64,000 nt of DNA from Caulobacter endophyticus (GTDB lineage Bacteria; Pseudomonadota; Alphaproteobacteria; Caulobacterales; Caulobacteraceae). The notes beneath the pieces are model-generated. The model saw only the letters and a program-made list of their open reading frames with translations, was not told the origin of the DNA and searched no databases. Positions 55,440-63,353 of this stretch are shown one piece after another. How positions within the stretch are numbered: the stretch's first letter is position 1; the number at the start of each line of letters is the position of its first letter. The stretch covers positions 248,001 to 312,000 of the forward strand of contig NZ_QDKQ01000077.1 of NCBI RefSeq assembly GCF_003116815.1. Direction: 5' to 3'. A program made the position numbers and the translations under genes.

Positions 55440-55458
55440 AATGAGAATCGTTCTCATT
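55440..55458. promoter_or_regulatory. Fur-type iron box AATGAGAATCGTTCTCATT
   Basis: Perfect 8-3-8 palindrome AATGAGAA-TCG-TTCTCATT, very close to known Fur-box cores (TGAGAAT-N-ATTCTCA). It lies directly upstream of the FecI-like sigma gene and covers the first possible ATG (55441). Iron-loaded Fur would shut off the sigma factor and through it the whole hemophore unit. Confidence 0.85.
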
Positions 55459-55470
55459 CGGGGTGGCGTG

Positions 55471-56016
55471 ATGCGATCTGGCCAGAGGGGACCGGCTTCC
55501 GACCTGACCGGTTTGCTGGAGGCTCATTACGAGGACCTCCGCCGCTTCGCCGCCCGCAAGGCCCGCTCGGCCAGCCTCGCCGACGACGTCATGCAGGACG
55601 CCTGGCTGAAACTGTCGGACCTGACCCGCGCGCCGGGCTTCGACGGCGCGGCGGTGCGCAACCCGCTGAGCTACCTGCGGCGGATCATCGCCAATCTCGT
55701 CGTCGACCGTCAGCGGCAGGCGGCGGCCCAGGCCCGGCGGGTCACGCCCGGCGACCTGCCGCTGGATGCCGGCAGCGACGCGCCCTCGGCCTTCCAGGTG
55801 CTGGCCGGCCGCCAAGAGATCGCGGTCGTCCAGGCCGCGATCGCCGAGCTGCCCGACAAGTGCCGCCAGGTGATCCTGCTCTATCGCGGCCACGACCTGA
55901 CCATGCAGCAGGTGGCCGATCGGCTTGGGATCTCGCCGCGCACCGTCGAGAACCACCTGGCCAAGGCCATGAGCCACTGTCGCCGTCGGCTGAAGGAAGC
56001 GCACGGCGATGAGTGA
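55471..56016 (+). CDS. ECF sigma factor, FecI type (hemophore locus)
   Basis: 181 aa from ATG 55471, chosen because the in-frame ATG at 55441 lies inside the Fur box; GGGGTGG is upstream. Region 2: 'LTGLLEAHYEDLRRFAARKARSASLADDVMQDAWLKLSDL', 'YLRRIIANLVVDRQRQ'. Region 4: 'AIAELPDKCRQVILLYRGHDLTMQQVADRLGISPRTVENHLAKAMSHCRRRL'. FecI-like factors respond to receptor-FecR signals. It is followed by fecR, the STN receptor, the cargo, Slam and TonB genes, all on the plus strand, which it probably switches on under iron limitation when ligand is present. Confidence 0.94.
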   Translation: MRSGQRGPASDLTGLLEAHYEDLRRFAARKARSASLADDVMQDAWLKLSDLTRAPGFDGAAVRNPLSYLRRIIANLVVDRQRQAAAQARRVTPGDLPLDAGSDAPSAFQVLAGRQEIAVVQAAIAELPDKCRQVILLYRGHDLTMQQVADRLGISPRTVENHLAKAMSHCRRRLKEAHGDE

Positions 56017-56073
56017 GACTAGGGGAAGCGCGGGCGCCGGTTCGTCCTGTCCTTTGGGAGGACCAAAGCCCAC

Positions 56074-57039
56074 ATGAGCGACAAGGACAAAACCGGGGGC
56101 GAGGCGCAGTTCGAGGCGGCGGCGCGGCGAACGCTGCGTCTGCGCGACGGGGCCGACGCAGTCGAGCACGCCGCCTGGCTGGCGGCCGATCCGGCCCGCG
56201 CCCAGGCGATGGCCGAGGCCGACCACGTGCTGTCTCTGATCGGGGCTGCCACGGCCCCTCAGGTGAGCGAGCCGTTCCAGCCACGCCGCAGCCGAAGTGC
56301 TGCGCCGTCTGTGCGGCCAAGTCGCCGAAGCTGGCGGATCCCTGCCGCGGCCGCCGCTTGTCTGGTGCTGGCCCTTGGGACCGGCGTCGCCTTCAGGGCC
56401 TTCGCGCCCGCGGATCCCAATCATCTGGTCGCCGAGGTCGGACAGGTGCGCAGGGAGGTGCTGGCTGACGGCAGCACGGTCACGCTCAACACCGGCGCGG
56501 TGCTCGACGTCCGCTATGGCCCGGAAGGTCGCAAGGTGCGGCTGGTGAGGGGGGAGGCCTTCTTCGACGTGGTCCACGATCCGTCGCGGCCGTTCGTGGT
56601 CGAGAGCCGGGCCGGCAGCGCCCGGGTGCTGGGCACGGCCTTCGACGTGCGCCTCAAGGGCGATGCGGCACGGGTCAGCGTCCTGCGCGGTGCGGTGCGG
56701 GTCGCGCCGGCCAGCGGGCAGGGCGTGGCCGTACTGCGGGCGGGGCAGGGCGCCTGGCTTGACGGCGCCGCGCCCTGGGCCGTGGCGCTGGAGGATCCCG
56801 CGGCGGTCGACGCCTGGCGTCAGGGTCGGCTGGTCGTCTATCACCGCCCGCTGTCCGAAGTGGTCGACGAGATCGGCCGCTACCGGCGCGGCAAGGTCTT
56901 GGTGCGCGGACAGGCCCTGGCCGCCCGGCAGGTGTCGGGCGTATTCGACGTCGCCAGGCCCGACGACGCCATCGACGCCCTGGCTGCGTCGCTGAGCCTG
57001 CGCACCGCGCGCCTGGGCGGTTTGGTCCTGCTCTACTGA
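56074..57039 (+). CDS. FecR-family sigma regulator (hemophore locus)
   Basis: 321 aa with GGGAGG upstream. N-terminal cytoplasmic domain ('DAVEHAAWLAADPARAQAMAEADHVLSLI'), membrane helix about 86-108, then FecR domain ('EVGQVRREVLADGSTVTLNTGAVLDVRYGPEGRKVRLVRGEAFFDVVHDPSRPFVVES', 'GTAFDVRLKGDAARVSVLRGAVRV'). The C-terminal STN-like end is 'YHRPLSEVVDEIGRYRRGKVLVRG'. It links receptor state to the sigma factor encoded just upstream. Confidence 0.94.
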   Translation: MSDKDKTGGEAQFEAAARRTLRLRDGADAVEHAAWLAADPARAQAMAEADHVLSLIGAATAPQVSEPFQPRRSRSAAPSVRPSRRSWRIPAAAAACLVLALGTGVAFRAFAPADPNHLVAEVGQVRREVLADGSTVTLNTGAVLDVRYGPEGRKVRLVRGEAFFDVVHDPSRPFVVESRAGSARVLGTAFDVRLKGDAARVSVLRGAVRVAPASGQGVAVLRAGQGAWLDGAAPWAVALEDPAAVDAWRQGRLVVYHRPLSEVVDEIGRYRRGKVLVRGQALAARQVSGVFDVARPDDAIDALAASLSLRTARLGGLVLLY

Positions 57040-57176
57040 CCGCAGTCACGGCTTCGCAAAAAAATCTTCGCGACCGCTAGGGGATCGCACGGCCGGAGTT
57101 CGTCTCACCATCATAAGATGCAATTGAGTGTCGCTCGCAATAATGGGCGACCCACGAGACGAGACCGACCGAAGAC

Positions 57177-60155
57177 ATGACGACGCCTGCCACCCCTTCC
57201 GGCCTGCTGCCCCGTATCCGCCGGCTGTCGTTGTGCCTGGCGCTGGCCTCGGCCAGCCCGCTGGCCCTGGGCGCGCTCCCTGCCGCCGCCCAGGAGAGCG
57301 CGGCCTACTCGGTCGATATCGCCGCCCAGCCGCTGCCGCAGGCGCTGAGTCAGTTCTCGCTGCAGACCAAGGTCCAGATCGTCTACGCCGTCGAGGCTCC
57401 CTACGGGCGCCGCGCCCCGGCCGTGCGTGGCCGCTTCAGCCAGGGCGAGATTCTGTCACGCCTGCTGGCCGGCAGCGGCGTCACCTGGCGCGAGGTTCGC
57501 CCGGGCGTCGTCACCCTGGAGGCCGCGCCGAGCGGCAAGGGGGCGGTGGTCACCGACGCCCTGCGCGTCGAGGGCGCGACCGGCGGCGCCGAAGCGCTGA
57601 ACACCCGCGACGCCCTCGGCTACGACAGCGTCTACGATCTCGACGGCGCCTCCACCTATGCCGGCAAAAGCCAGGTCGAGCGCTACAAGGGCGTCAGCCC
57701 CGCCGACGTGCTCAAGGGCATGGTCGGCGTCTACAGCGGCGACGCCCGCAACAGCGGCGCGCTCGATCCCAGCGTCCGTGGCGTCGAGGGCCCGGGCCGC
57801 GTTCCGGTGATCATCGATGGCGGCGAGCAGGCCCTGACCGTCTGGCGCGGCTACAACGGCGCCAACAACCGCAGCTACATCGACCCCAGCCTTGTTGGCG
57901 GCGTGCAGGTGCTGAAAGGTCCATCCCTGACCGCCGGCGTCCATACCTCGGTCGGTGGTGCGGTGGTCATCGACACCCTGTCGCCGCGCGATATCCTGCG
58001 CGAAGGCGAACGCTACGGCGCCGAGGTTCGCATCGAGGGCGGGAACAACTCCACCAAGCCGCGCCTGCCGACCCTGCTGACCGGCCGCGACTATCGCGAC
58101 GTGCCCGGCTTTCCCGGCTCGACCGGGACCGCGGGCTTTCCCAACAGTCCCTATAACGATCCCTACGTGCAGGTGACGCCCCGCACCTCGGGCGACAACG
58201 ACACCGTTTCGTTCGGCGACCGCGCCGCCCGCCTGGCTGTCGCCGGCCGCAGCGACGACTTCGAATGGCTGGCCGCCTACGCTTGGCGCGAGCGCGGCAA
58301 CTACTTCGCCGGCGAGGGCGAGGCCGACTACTACCGCCAGACCAACCTGCCCACGCCTTCGGGCCCGCAGGACCTGATCAAGCGCCTGGCCTTCAACTAC
58401 CAGCCCGGCAACGAGGTGCCCAACACCTCCAGCGAGATGAGCTCGTGGCTGGGCAAGCTGGTCTGGAAGATCAGCGACACTCAGCAGCTGAAGTTCGGGG
58501 TGCGTGACACCGTCTCGACCTATGGCGAGGTCATGCCCTCGCGGATCATCTCGGTCGGCGCCAACGGCATGGGCAAGGTGCAGTGGCCGCTCAGCGAGGT
58601 TCACGCCACCGCCTGGAACGTCGACTACCGCCTCAAGCCTGGCGGCCGCTGGGTGGACCTGAAGTCGTCGGTGTGGCTGACCCGCACCAACAGCCACACC
58701 TACAGCGCTGGAGGCTTCCCCAACTGGGCCCAGAACGCCGCCAACCCGATCACCAAGAACACCGCCCTGGCCAACGCCAAGAACGATCGCTACGGCCTGT
58801 CGCTCAGCAACAAGACCCGCCTGGCCTCGACCCTCGACCTGGTGGTCGCCGGCGACTGGCAGCACGAGAAGCTGACCTCGCCCGACGTATGGGGCGGCAC
58901 GTTCGACGGCTGGCGGCAGTATCCCAGGGCCGGCCGGCGCGAGGAATACAACGTCCACGCCAATCTCGAATGGCGGCCGGTCAGCGAACTGACGCTGACG
59001 GCGGGGGCGCGCTATTCGCACTATTGGGCTTTCGACGACTTCCTGGACGCACAACTGGCCAAGGGCGTGGTGTTCACCAACTACGTCTTCACCGACGCCA
59101 CGGTGGCCTATCGCGCCCTGGTCAACGGCCGCACCGTCACCACCCGCATACCCTGGGAGCGTGACAGCACCGGCAAGCTGACCCGCGCCACCAACCCTTG
59201 CGTCAACGGCTTCCTCAATACCGTGGCCGGGGCCACGGGCTACTGCGTGGCCACGGTGAACCAGGCGCCGGTCACGGCCGTCAGCCGCACCCAACGCGGC
59301 GACGGCTGGACGCCAGCGGTCTCGGCCACCTTCAACTTCACGCCCAACGCCCGGGCCTATGTCCGCTACGCCGAGGCCTATCGCTTCCCCAGCCTGTTCG
59401 AGAGCACGGTCGGCTTCTCGGCCGCCATCGACCCGACCCGGCCACTGAAGCCCGAGCACGCCCATACCTGGGAGGCGGCCTATGTCCACGACCTGTCGGC
59501 TCTTCTGTCGCTGCCCGAGGGCCAGCGCGCCGACGTCAAGCTGACCTGGTTCCGCAATCGCACGGACAACATCATCGAGCGCGGCACCCAGCTGCAGCTC
59601 TCCAACATGGAAAAGCAGATCATCGAGGGGCTGGAGCTGCAGGCCCGCTACGATAATGGCCGGGTGTTCGCCGACTTTTCCGCCGCCCACAACTTCAAGA
59701 ACAAGGTCTGCGACCGCCAGCAGGCGATCCTGAAGGCGCCCAACACAGGCATCGTGCCCGACTGCGTGAACTTCGGCTTCGTCGGGGGCTATCTGCTGAC
59801 CCAGGCCACGCCCGAGAACTCGGCCAACCTTTCGCTCGGCGCGCGGTTCCTGGAGCGTCGCCTGGAGATCGGGGTGAGGGGCGCCTACTACAGCGCCTAC
59901 GACAATCCCGAGCTCGACCGCTTCATCGGCGGGGCCACCGCCACTCGCGTCGACGGCTGGGCGCTGAACACGCCCTACCTGTGGGACGAGATCGTCACGG
60001 TCGACGCCTACGCCAACTTCAAGCTCAACGAGAAGGTCCGGTTCGAGCTGGTCGGGACCAATCTCAACGACCGCTACTACACCGATCCCCTGACCCGCAC
60101 GGCCCAGCCGGCCCCCGGGCGCACGCTGAAGCTCAGCATGACCGCCCGCTACTGA
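57177..60155 (+). CDS. TonB-dependent receptor with STN domain, probable hemophore/heme receptor
   Basis: 992 aa, signal peptide about 1-38 ('LPAAAQE'). STN domain about 43-115 ('SVDIAAQPLPQALSQFSLQTKVQIVYAVEAPYGRRAPAVRGRFSQGEILSRLLAGSG'). Plug with 'DVLKGMVGVYSGDARNSGALDPSVRGVEGPGRVPVIIDGGEQALTVWRGYNGANNRSYIDPSLVGGVQVLKGPS'. The barrel has 'YAEAYRFPSLFEST...LKPEHAHTWEAAYVHD', which lies where heme receptors have their FRAP/NPNL boxes. It ends 'LKLSMTARY'. The order with sigma, FecR, a Slam-type cargo, Slam and TonB makes it the likely partner of the secreted protein at 60269. A stem-loop at 60221 follows. Confidence 0.93.
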   Translation: MTTPATPSGLLPRIRRLSLCLALASASPLALGALPAAAQESAAYSVDIAAQPLPQALSQFSLQTKVQIVYAVEAPYGRRAPAVRGRFSQGEILSRLLAGSGVTWREVRPGVVTLEAAPSGKGAVVTDALRVEGATGGAEALNTRDALGYDSVYDLDGASTYAGKSQVERYKGVSPADVLKGMVGVYSGDARNSGALDPSVRGVEGPGRVPVIIDGGEQALTVWRGYNGANNRSYIDPSLVGGVQVLKGPSLTAGVHTSVGGAVVIDTLSPRDILREGERYGAEVRIEGGNNSTKPRLPTLLTGRDYRDVPGFPGSTGTAGFPNSPYNDPYVQVTPRTSGDNDTVSFGDRAARLAVAGRSDDFEWLAAYAWRERGNYFAGEGEADYYRQTNLPTPSGPQDLIKRLAFNYQPGNEVPNTSSEMSSWLGKLVWKISDTQQLKFGVRDTVSTYGEVMPSRIISVGANGMGKVQWPLSEVHATAWNVDYRLKPGGRWVDLKSSVWLTRTNSHTYSAGGFPNWAQNAANPITKNTALANAKNDRYGLSLSNKTRLASTLDLVVAGDWQHEKLTSPDVWGGTFDGWRQYPRAGRREEYNVHANLEWRPVSELTLTAGARYSHYWAFDDFLDAQLAKGVVFTNYVFTDATVAYRALVNGRTVTTRIPWERDSTGKLTRATNPCVNGFLNTVAGATGYCVATVNQAPVTAVSRTQRGDGWTPAVSATFNFTPNARAYVRYAEAYRFPSLFESTVGFSAAIDPTRPLKPEHAHTWEAAYVHDLSALLSLPEGQRADVKLTWFRNRTDNIIERGTQLQLSNMEKQIIEGLELQARYDNGRVFADFSAAHNFKNKVCDRQQAILKAPNTGIVPDCVNFGFVGGYLLTQATPENSANLSLGARFLERRLEIGVRGAYYSAYDNPELDRFIGGATATRVDGWALNTPYLWDEIVTVDAYANFKLNEKVRFELVGTNLNDRYYTDPLTRTAQPAPGRTLKLSMTARY

Positions 60156-60220
60156 CCCCAATTCACGGCTTTTGGCGCGTCGGCTCCCTACCGACGCGGC
60201 GGACGCCGCTGGATGAGCCC

Positions 60221-60241
60221 GGGCCTCCATCGAAGAGGCCC
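60221..60241 (+). terminator. stem-loop between receptor and hemophore gene
   Basis: 7-bp stem GGGCCTC/GAGGCCC (60221-60227 with 60235-60241), loop CATCGAA, followed by ATTT only. It may partly terminate or stabilise mRNA so that receptor and carrier are made in different amounts. Confidence 0.45.
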
Positions 60242-60268
60242 ATTTAACTAAGCATCGGAGAAGACGAG

Positions 60269-61033
60269 ATGTCCCGTTCGACCTTCAAGACGCTGATCCT
60301 GGCCTCCATCGCCGCCGCCGCCCTGACCGGCGTCGCCCATGCCGGCATCGTCGGCGAGTCCACCGACGAAACCCACCTGAAGGTGGGCGCCAGCGTGATC
60401 AACGCGGGTCCGCACACGGCCGGCAAGGCGGGCGTCGCCGTCGCCTCCATCGGTCTGTCGGCCTATGTCGACTTCCAGGGCCTGTCGGCCTCGGCCCCGC
60501 CGTCGGGCGGCGTCAGCACGATCAACAACCCGTCGACCGCGCCGGGCAGCCACAACGGCATGGGCGTGTTCAACTTCGCCAAGGTCAGCACCGGCGACCT
60601 CTGGTTCGGCGAATGGTCCGACACCGCCAACGCCAATGACGGCACCCACACCGTCTACTACGTCGGCGACGACACCGGCGCGACCGCCGGCACGGGCACG
60701 GCCAGCTACACCGTGAAGGGCCTCAGCGACTACGCCACTAACGGCATCCTGGAAGGCACGTTCAACGCCGACTTCACCGGCGGCACGCTCAGCGGCTACG
60801 TCCAGAGCGCCTCGACCGGCTACAAGGTCGATATCGGCTCGGTCGGCATCTCGGGCCTGAACATCGCCAGCACCACGGCCAACGCCACGGCGACGCAAGG
60901 GACCACGACCCTGGCCTCGGGCGGTGAAGTCAGCGGCAAGTTCTTTGGCGCCAACGCCGCGGCCCTGGCGGGTCTCGTCACCTTCGGCGGCAACAGCGTC
61001 TACGACACCGCCTTCGGCGGCACGAAGAACTGA
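60269..61033 (+). CDS. secreted hemophilin-like carrier with TbpB-type barrel (Slam cargo)
   Basis: 254 aa. Signal peptide 1-25 ends AHA; the protein contains no cysteine, so it cannot be lipidated and should be released. The mature part looks all-beta. Residues about 26-160 ('GEWSDTANANDGTHTVYYVGDD', 'ASYTVKGLSDYATNGILEGTFNADFTGGTLSGYV') recall the hemophilin heme carriers. The end 'GGEVSGKFFGANAAALAGLVTFGG' is the closing motif of TbpB-type eight-stranded barrels recognised by Slam. Mature His residues at 36, 49, 95 and 127 could bind heme. CGGAGAAG precedes the ATG. It lies between the receptor and the Slam gene. Ligand and Slam-dependence are inferred from family and context. Confidence 0.85.
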   Translation: MSRSTFKTLILASIAAAALTGVAHAGIVGESTDETHLKVGASVINAGPHTAGKAGVAVASIGLSAYVDFQGLSASAPPSGGVSTINNPSTAPGSHNGMGVFNFAKVSTGDLWFGEWSDTANANDGTHTVYYVGDDTGATAGTGTASYTVKGLSDYATNGILEGTFNADFTGGTLSGYVQSASTGYKVDIGSVGISGLNIASTTANATATQGTTTLASGGEVSGKFFGANAAALAGLVTFGGNSVYDTAFGGTKN

Positions 61034-61041
61034 GGACGCGA

Positions 61042-61076
61042 GGGGCGGGGGCCGGTCGGCCTTCGCCCCAAGCCCC
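61042..61076 (+). promoter_or_regulatory. GC-rich hairpin just upstream of the Slam start
   Basis: GGGGC (61042-61046) pairs with GCCCC (61072-61076), and GGGG (61047-61050) with CCCC (61066-61069). The structure ends next to the start codon and includes the only purine-rich stretch there, so it could lower Slam translation relative to its cargo. Confidence 0.4.
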
Positions 61077-61080
61077 TGTG

Positions 61081-62577
61081 ATGACCAGGTCGTCCGCTCA
61101 CCAGCGTTTTCCGTTCCGCCTAGCCGCCGGCTGCGCGGCTTTCGTCGTTCTGGCCCTGGCCGGCGCAGCCCACGCCCAGGTCGACGAAGACACCCGCCTG
61201 CGTCTTGACCAGGACCTGTCGCGTCGCGCCGCCGAGCGCGAGGCCCAGACCCGCCAGGAGACCGCGCCCGACGTGCTGGTCATCGATGGTCAGGCCTATG
61301 CCGTCGGACCCGGCGTCGACGACGTCGGCAAGGCGCTCTACCTGTCGCTGGCCCGCCGCCAGTGGGGCGACGCGCGCCGCTTCCTGAGGGCCTATCTGGC
61401 GCTGCCCGAGCGCGATCCGATGCTGGTCCTCTACGCCAAGGGTCAGCTGGCCCGCCAGGACGGCGACCTCCGCGGCGCCGAGCGCAGCTTCCGCCAGCTT
61501 CTGGCCTTGCAGCCCGATTTCCAGCCGGGCCGGATCGAACTGGCCCGCGTGCTGTTCGAGAACCAGCGCGACCGTGAGGCCGAGACGATGTTCCGCGCGA
61601 TCCTCGCCGAACTGCCGGCCAGCGACCCCCGCGCCGCCGGCGTTCGCCGCAGCGTCGAGACCTTCCTGGCGGCCCTCAAGCGCCGGCGCGGCTGGACAGG
61701 CCAGTTCGCGTTGGGGCCCGGCTGGAACTCCAACATCAATCAGGCCTCGGGCAGCTATGCCTGTCTGCTGCCGGGACCGGAAAGGATCTGCTTCTTCGAC
61801 CGCAAGACGCCGGACCCGGTCGGCGCGGCGACGGTCAGTTTCGAGAGCGTGCTCAATCGCCGCCTGCCGCTGCGGGGCTCCGGCGGCCTGACCTTTCGCG
61901 GCATGGCCTATGGCGAGCTCTATCCGGAGGAACAGCGCTACAATCAGGCCACTTTCGTCGCCCAGGCCGGCCTCGACTATCGCACCGCGCGGCTGGCCTT
62001 CGGGCTCGCCCCATCGCTCGACATGGGGACCATGGGCGCTGTGCGCCTGTACGAAGCGCCCGGCCTGCATGCCGAGGTCAGCCGGGTGATCGGCGTCTCG
62101 ACCCTGGTCAAGCTGGAGGGCGACTACAAGGTCATGCGCTACCGCCAGGCCTCGTTCTCGGCGCTGGACGGCGACCAGGCCTCGCTGTTCCTGACCGCCT
62201 GGCGCGGCCTTTCCGGCGGCTGGACGATGTTCGGGGGCATGGACCTGCTCGACAAGGACGCCGATCATGCGGTCAACGCCTACCGCCAGGCAGGCCTGCG
62301 CCTGGGCGCGGCTACGCCAACCCTGAAGGGACTGAACGCCACCCTGTTCGCCTCCGCCCGCCGCAAGCGCTGGGACGCCGTCAACGAGACGCTGGAGGCC
62401 CGCCGCCGCGACGACGAGCAGAGCTTTACCGCCATCCTGCGCACGCCGCGCTGGAAGACGCCCGGCGGCTTCACGCCCAGCCTGACCTTGCAGTACGCCA
62501 AGGTCGCCAGCAGCATCGACTGGTTGTTCTCCTATGAGAAGACCGCTGCCAGCCTGAAGCTGGAGCGGGTGTTCTGA
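61081..62577 (+). CDS. Slam-type outer-membrane exporter (DUF560, type XI secretion)
   Basis: 498 aa from ATG 61081 (a GTG at 61078 is the alternative). Signal peptide 1-32 ('AGAAHAQ'). Residues about 80-195 are TPR-like helices ('QLARQDGDLRGAERSFRQLLALQPDFQPGRIELARVLFENQRDREAETMFRAILAELPASDP'). From about 203 a 14-strand-type DUF560 barrel opens with 'GWTGQFALGPGWNSNINQASGSY' and ends 'WLFSYEKTAASLKLERVF', with terminal Phe. This is the layout of Slam proteins, which move surface or secreted barrel proteins across the outer membrane. Its cargo is encoded 47 bp upstream. The stop overlaps the tonB start (TGATG). Confidence 0.92.
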   Translation: MTRSSAHQRFPFRLAAGCAAFVVLALAGAAHAQVDEDTRLRLDQDLSRRAAEREAQTRQETAPDVLVIDGQAYAVGPGVDDVGKALYLSLARRQWGDARRFLRAYLALPERDPMLVLYAKGQLARQDGDLRGAERSFRQLLALQPDFQPGRIELARVLFENQRDREAETMFRAILAELPASDPRAAGVRRSVETFLAALKRRRGWTGQFALGPGWNSNINQASGSYACLLPGPERICFFDRKTPDPVGAATVSFESVLNRRLPLRGSGGLTFRGMAYGELYPEEQRYNQATFVAQAGLDYRTARLAFGLAPSLDMGTMGAVRLYEAPGLHAEVSRVIGVSTLVKLEGDYKVMRYRQASFSALDGDQASLFLTAWRGLSGGWTMFGGMDLLDKDADHAVNAYRQAGLRLGAATPTLKGLNATLFASARRKRWDAVNETLEARRRDDEQSFTAILRTPRWKTPGGFTPSLTLQYAKVASSIDWLFSYEKTAASLKLERVF

Positions 62578-63353
62578 TGCTGGCGTCCCTGCCCATGGCC
62601 GTGCTGGAAATTCCCTGCGAGGCGCCCGCCGCCAGCGGCCGCAAGCGCCGGTGGAGCCTGGCCTTCACGGTGGCGGTGGCGCTGCATGTGGCCTTGCTGC
62701 TGGGCGCCTACCTGCGGCTGTCCCGGCCAGAGGCGCCGCCGGCCGCGCCGATCGAGGCCATCTCGGTCGAGTTCGCGGTCGAGCCCGTCGCGCCGCTGCG
62801 GCCCAAGGACGAGCGGCCGCCAGGACCGGAGGCCAGGGCCAGCGCGGCCGCCATCGCCACGCCTGCGCCGCCCAAGGCGATCGACCGCCCGCCAGACCCG
62901 CTGGGTATCCTGCCGGCGGTGGTCCGATCCGCCGCCAAGGCTTCGGAAGGCGAGGCCTCGGCCAGGCCCTCGGCGCCCAGCGAGGCTGCGGCGCCGCCGA
63001 CCGCGCCGGCGCCGCCTGCGCCAGTGATGGCCGCGCCCCGCACCTCCGCCGCCAGCGCCCGCGACGCGGCGATCAGTTGGAAGGGCCTGATCCTGGGCCG
63101 CCTGCAGGTCTACAAGCGCTATCCCCGCCGCGCCCAGAGCGCCGGGCAGGAGGGCGTGGTCCATATCGCCTTCACCGTCGATCGCGGGGGCAAGGTGTTA
63201 AGCGCCCGGATCGCCAAGGGCTCTGGCTATCCGCTGCTCGACGACGAGGCCCTGGCCACGGTCAGGCGCGCCTCGCCGATGCCGCCTCCGCCTGGCGATG
63301 TGCCGGGCGACCCGGTCGAGGTGCTGGCGCCCGTCGAATTCTTCGTCAGGTGA
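62577..63353 (+). CDS. tonB: TonB-family energy transducer dedicated to the hemophore locus
   Basis: 258 aa. One N-terminal membrane helix about 25-45 after a basic stretch ('GRKRRWSLAFTVAVALHVALLLGAYL'), a Pro/Ala-rich periplasmic spacer (about 50-160), and a C-terminal TonB domain ('LGRLQVYKRYPRRAQSAGQEGVVHIAFTVDRGGKVLSARIAKGSGYPLLDDEALATVRRASPMPPPPGD'). Translation is coupled to Slam (TGATG). No exbB or exbD is next to it, so it must use those encoded elsewhere. It is the last gene of the Fur-type unit. Confidence 0.94.
   Translation: MLASLPMAVLEIPCEAPAASGRKRRWSLAFTVAVALHVALLLGAYLRLSRPEAPPAAPIEAISVEFAVEPVAPLRPKDERPPGPEARASAAAIATPAPPKAIDRPPDPLGILPAVVRSAAKASEGEASARPSAPSEAAAPPTAPAPPAPVMAAPRTSAASARDAAISWKGLILGRLQVYKRYPRRAQSAGQEGVVHIAFTVDRGGKVLSARIAKGSGYPLLDDEALATVRRASPMPPPPGDVPGDPVEVLAPVEFFVR

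Follow-up and report, generated by a model that had tools for sequence, protein, structure and literature searches.

Studies of Slam-dependent hemophilins have so far dealt mostly with animal-associated gammaproteobacteria and relatives of Neisseria. The hemO cluster of Acinetobacter baumannii encodes an ECF sigma factor, an anti-sigma factor, the receptor HphR, the hemophore HphA, the Slam protein HsmA, a TonB-related protein and a heme oxygenase (PMC10483418). Mutants of this cluster showed hemophore function, and reconstitution in E. coli worked with HsmA, HphA, HphR and TonB. In Xenorhabdus, secretion of HrpC depends on HrpB, which was demonstrated in E. coli. In this study we analysed a 64-kb window (the whole stretch of DNA under study, 64,000 nucleotides) from the 5.4 Mb genome of Caulobacter endophyticus, which contains six + strand genes from 55471 to 63353, here called the hph locus (Table 1). 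Gene identities, gene order and its conservation, heme-ligand residues, a predicted fold and a Fur-type site were computed. Taken together they make it very probable that this locus serves heme uptake by a Slam-dependent hemophilin and belongs to the hemO type of A. baumannii.

Layout of the hph locus

Gene families were named by Pfam and NCBIfam profile searches, in which some strict subfamily cut-offs were missed: the FecR-type protein scored 110 bits with model PRK09774 (strict cut-off 385), and the receptor, of the heme/hemoglobin type by TIGR01785, scored 235 bits (strict cut-off 317). The initial annotation had described six co-directional genes, among them a hemophore gene adjacent to that of a Slam exporter (type XI secretion) and a FecI/FecR arm. 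All six were found, at coordinates that were exact or nearly so, and family matches bear out the identity given to each. The system had also been called complete, which has to be qualified to nearly complete, as there is no heme oxygenase within the Caulobacter locus. The open reading frame listed for the sigma factor starts at 55441, inside the palindrome. Homology in relatives supports the ATG at 55471 instead, and the palindrome therefore lies upstream of the sigma gene and does not overlap it. The slam and tonB genes overlap by one base, and hphA, which encodes the cargo with its TbpB-type barrel, ends 44 bases upstream of slam. Between fecR and the receptor gene there is a gap of 137 bp containing conserved blocks, so the six genes need not share one transcript, and a single transcript can no longer be taken as certain. 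A search of the locus against Rfam gave no match.

Table 1. Features of the hph locus (positions in the window) and the second locus with the palindrome core (positions in locus L033)
Feature	Position	Strand	Basis or remark
Perfect Fur-type palindrome, AATGAGAA-TCG-TTCTCATT	55440..55458		Upstream of sigma gene; sequence match
FecI-like ECF sigma factor	55471..56016	+	PF04542, PF08281, TIGR02937; start by homology in relatives
FecR-type anti-sigma / sigma regulator	56074..57039	+	PF04773 6e-20, 71.9 bits
Conserved leader in fecR-receptor gap, probable ECF-sigma-dependent promoter	57058..57176	+	Blocks invariant in 7 Caulobacter loci
TonB-dependent receptor with plug and barrel, N-terminal STN signalling domain, HphR/HasR-like	57177..60155	+	PF07660, PF07715, PF00593, TIGR01785
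Secreted hemophilin (HphA): signal peptide, N-terminal heme clamp, C-terminal 8-strand barrel	60269..61033	+	PF22828, PF22829, NF041636; 8gmm/7re4; AlphaFold + Foldseek
Slam, outer-membrane exporter: TPR domain + predicted 14-strand barrel	61078..62577	+	PF04575 1e-38, PF24575 8e-23
TonB energiser	62577..63353	+	PF03544 (TonB_C) 2e-18, TIGR01352
Second Fur-palindrome locus: heme oxygenase, DUF454-like protein (named by eye), TonB, sigma, FecR, paralogous STN receptor	L033:3576-10520	-	

The HphA carrier and its Slam exporter

Both domains of the carrier were detected above cut-off (HphA_N, PF22828, 1.2e-33; HphA_C, PF22829, 3.9e-23), as was the family NF041636, and the barrel also matches PF01298 (8.7e-6). 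Sequence searches relate the protein to several known HphA proteins, among them holo-HphA from Stenotrophomonas maltophilia (PDB 8gmm, 4e-45) and HphA of A. baumannii (9e-27). A structure prediction for this product had been proposed in the initial annotation. The AlphaFold model, built from 12 related sequences (pLDDT 81.6), retrieved solved hemophilins as its best eight Foldseek matches (TM 0.71-0.77, E down to 2e-20), followed by HpuA, LbpB and TbpB. In A. baumannii HphA the heme is held between H43 and H106 (PMC8560813). These residues align to H49 and H95 of the Caulobacter protein, the predicted heme ligands, and H95 is carried by a loop (residues 88-96) that is uncertain in the model. 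The first histidine is invariant in all 16 aligned hemophilins; the second is also present in 16 of 16, with a shift of one residue in the two Xanthomonadaceae. Judged by domains, fold match and ligand residues, the product is a true hemophilin, which would bind heme as its studied relatives do. It has a cleavable-looking signal peptide and is free of cysteine, hence without a lipobox, and it would thus be expected to be released and not lipid-anchored.

Is heme then the real prey? The main target of HphA could be some other iron ligand, or else a hemoprotein of a host or plant, for example hemoglobin, as is the case for HpuA, with heme being secondary. Its barrel is common to HpuA and TbpB, and A. 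baumannii HphA binds hemoglobin as well. Moreover, named carriers of the locus include C. radicis, C. zeae and C. endophyticus, for which plant globins might be a source. However, both heme-ligand histidines and the heme-binding HphA_N domain are present, and the receptor belongs to the heme type. We therefore regard another main prey as very unlikely and heme capture as the better reading of this carrier. In two further loci, hphA occurs as a tandem pair flanked by one receptor gene and one Slam gene (L087:8509-10112 and L088:8987-10590). The paired products have about 35% and 45% identity to C. endophyticus HphA, and they are possibly two cargoes for one exporter.

The initial annotation had also proposed comparing the product of the following gene (then placed at 61081, here at 61078) with the family DUF560. 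This comparison confirmed a Slam: barrel PF04575 (133.5 bits) and TPR domain PF24575 (81.2 bits) were both above cut-off. In the AlphaFold model 14 strands follow the TPR domain, which is the layout expected of Slams. When the model was compared with the PDB by Foldseek, the matches listed were only weak ones, to TPR-barrel proteins of the BcsC/PelB type and to porins, and did not include a solved Slam. The genome has only one Slam gene, and in a tree of Slams the alphaproteobacterial sequences form a single group (100/99). By analogy with studied relatives, HphA would be secreted in a Slam-dependent manner, reaching the periplasm via Sec and crossing the outer membrane by means of the adjacent Slam.

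Candidate control elements and the receptor

Fur of C. crescentus is known to work via a 19-bp palindrome (PMC3751524). The perfect Fur-type palindrome claimed for the hph locus is indeed present and represents a candidate Fur operator. It is the sole match within the window at up to three mismatches, with 0.01 expected by chance. Its 15-bp core has two exact copies in the genome, and a reversed control pattern of the core gave no genome match at up to one mismatch. Five other Caulobacter loci have the identical palindrome, and a sixth (L020) has a degenerate copy. Beyond Caulobacter, a Fur-type site ahead of the sigma gene is clear in one locus (L095) but not in most others.

The leader of the receptor gene contains the blocks CTAGGGGATC ... 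TTCGTCT, then ATAAGATGCAA, and is probably a sigma-dependent promoter. The motif AGGGGAT-N14-17-CGTCT has only two matches in the genome. The other one is near no evident iron gene, and the motif is therefore uninformative on the specificity of the sigma factor. We also noted a TCGTCTC/GAGACGA inverted repeat in this leader (57100-57170), largely kept across Caulobacter and without an Rfam match, which may form a hairpin or serve as a binding site.

The locus encodes an ECF sigma factor, FecR and an STN-bearing receptor together, the set known from cell-surface signalling. The STN match of the receptor (25.0) is under the Pfam gathering score of 28.4, and the domain aligns with the signalling domain of HasR, the best solved relative of the receptor (6e-32). 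An STN domain was found in all 14 aligned receptors linked to sigma/FecR, as well as in a paralogous receptor encoded elsewhere in the genome, and it was absent from both aligned receptors of loci without the arm. The presence of STN thus appears to track the arm, as cell-surface signalling predicts, which is a lead and not a law because there are only two receptors without the arm. Sigma and FecR might be passengers, with Fur alone controlling the uptake genes, given that the palindrome stands before all six genes and that one transcript is possible. But the receptor gene is preceded by the gap with its conserved blocks, the STN domain goes with the arm across loci, and even the loci of distant relatives retain sigma and FecR. 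Hence we consider a mere passenger role unlikely and favour two control layers, iron via Fur and heme via STN and FecR, as studied relatives would suggest.

Heme uptake through the receptor would likewise follow the example of studied relatives. The heme ligands of HasR, which we take to be His189 and His603, are histidines in the aligned HasR chain and correspond to Tyr226 and Ala750 in the Caulobacter receptor. The handover would thus have to use other residues, and HasR offers no template for it. Tyr226 lies within a GYxG motif common to all 17 aligned receptors, and 14 of these 17 also retain His761.

The most probable course of events is as follows. When iron is scarce, Fur would leave the palindrome, and the genes for sigma and FecR would be transcribed. 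Extracellular HphA would clamp heme with H49 and H95 and pass it to the TonB-dependent receptor, which would import it, powered by the TonB of the locus itself. The loaded receptor would signal through its STN domain to FecR, and the sigma factor freed in this way would transcribe receptor, hphA, slam and tonB, using the probable promoter within the 137-bp gap. Opening of the imported heme would fall to a heme oxygenase encoded elsewhere, most likely the one beside the second identical Fur site.

Heme breakdown, distribution and known systems

Two heme oxygenase genes were found in the genome, both outside the hph locus, and one of them adjoins the only other exact copy of the palindrome core (Table 1). 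Each of the six loci examined from Sphingomonadaceae and Xanthomonadaceae has a heme oxygenase gene after slam or tonB. For Caulobacter it seems most likely that the genes for importing heme and those for degrading it reside at two loci which Fur could control jointly. The paralogous STN receptor of the second locus (1173 aa; L033:3576-7097, - strand; genome G000, contig C71) carries at its C-terminus, following the receptor barrel, a fused OMP_b-brl domain (PF13505, 29.5 bits, cut-off 28.7). It thus appears to have two outer-membrane barrels in one chain, and the second barrel was not seen in the hph receptor.

Scanning one genome per species by similarity to the carrier yielded 13 further loci, of which the nearest with a species name belong to Caulobacter. 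Six Caulobacter loci, four from Sphingomonadaceae and two from Xanthomonadaceae share the order sigma, FecR, receptor, hphA and slam; in a seventh Caulobacter locus a contig end cuts off the gene order. The sigma-FecR arm occurs in loci of Caulobacter, Sphingomonas, Novosphingobium, Stenotrophomonas and Xanthomonas. An even sample of the phylum (398 genomes, the source genome not counted among hemophilin carriers) contained strong hemophilins in eight genomes. Sigma and FecR lie upstream of the receptor in six of these but not in the other two. One of the six arm-bearing loci, otherwise similar, has two additional genes, probably for secreted proteins or lipoproteins, between the receptor gene and hphA (L093:10138-13069, - strand). 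Within the genus, hphA was found in 7 of 37 genomes (first sample, source genome counted), and the HphA_N domain occurred in one of the 385 genomes sampled from the class, the source genome itself. The distribution of hphA is patchy. In Caulobacter genomes without the locus the downstream gene was found but the upstream aldo-keto reductase was not beside it, so there is no clean empty site.

A further-reaching hypothesis is that the Caulobacter locus is an environmental and not an animal-host hemophore system, taking heme from plant or microbial hemoproteins. Heme breakdown would then fall to the second locus, under the control of an identical Fur site, and expression would require that heme delivered by the hemophore be sensed by STN and FecR. 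We put this forward tentatively, as possible but doubtful. In the literature we found no report of STN-FecR feedback on hemophore-delivered heme for any Slam hemophore.

The initial annotation had held that a FecI/FecR arm is usually missing from known Slam systems and that the arrangement would be new for alphaproteobacteria. The gene table of hemO (PMC10483418) shows the first statement to be false for Acinetobacter, a genus that the annotation itself had named. The second fails too, as the order is the same in A. baumannii and is also found in Sphingomonas, Novosphingobium, other Caulobacter and Xanthomonadaceae. Could the arrangement still be without precedent in biology, or at any rate among Slam systems? 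Sigma factors are unmentioned in the Slam surveys whose full text we searched, but the gene table of hemO (PMC10483418) and the conservation in many genera already refute novelty, and we give the idea practically no credence. The loci examined thus correct the view that Slam loci lack the arm. Our findings extend the Slam-hemophilin system to soil and plant alphaproteobacteria and to a tractable genus, although surveys of hemophilin prevalence may already list Caulobacter. Since, among the loci examined, arm-bearing ones have STN receptors and armless ones do not, ligand sensing in Slam hemophore systems becomes directly testable.

Compared with known systems, the locus resembles the Has system of Serratia (HasI, HasS, HasR, HasA, HasB) in having a sigma factor, an anti-sigma factor, a signalling receptor and a secreted hemophore, whereas the heme ligands of HasR are not kept in its receptor. 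HasA itself is unrelated to HphA and is exported by type I secretion. With the Xenorhabdus hrp locus and Haemophilus hemophilin it shares a soluble hemophilin, a Slam and a receptor. In the parts of the accounts available to us a sigma-FecR arm is not described for those systems, and Haemophilus hemophilin uses one histidine ligand compared with two predicted in Caulobacter. The closest solved relative of the carrier is S. maltophilia HphA, solved with heme (8gmm; about 46% identity in the Foldseek alignment). A related locus of Stenotrophomonas, a gammaproteobacterium, has the same gene order but adds a heme oxygenase gene between slam and tonB. With A. baumannii hemO the Caulobacter locus shares the same six genes in the same order, a carrier of the same family with both ligands, a Slam and its own TonB. 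It differs in its alphaproteobacterial host, in its cysteine-free carrier (A. baumannii HphA was reported with a lipobox; PMC8560813) and in having its heme oxygenase elsewhere, and thus resembles hemO in gene order without having the same content.
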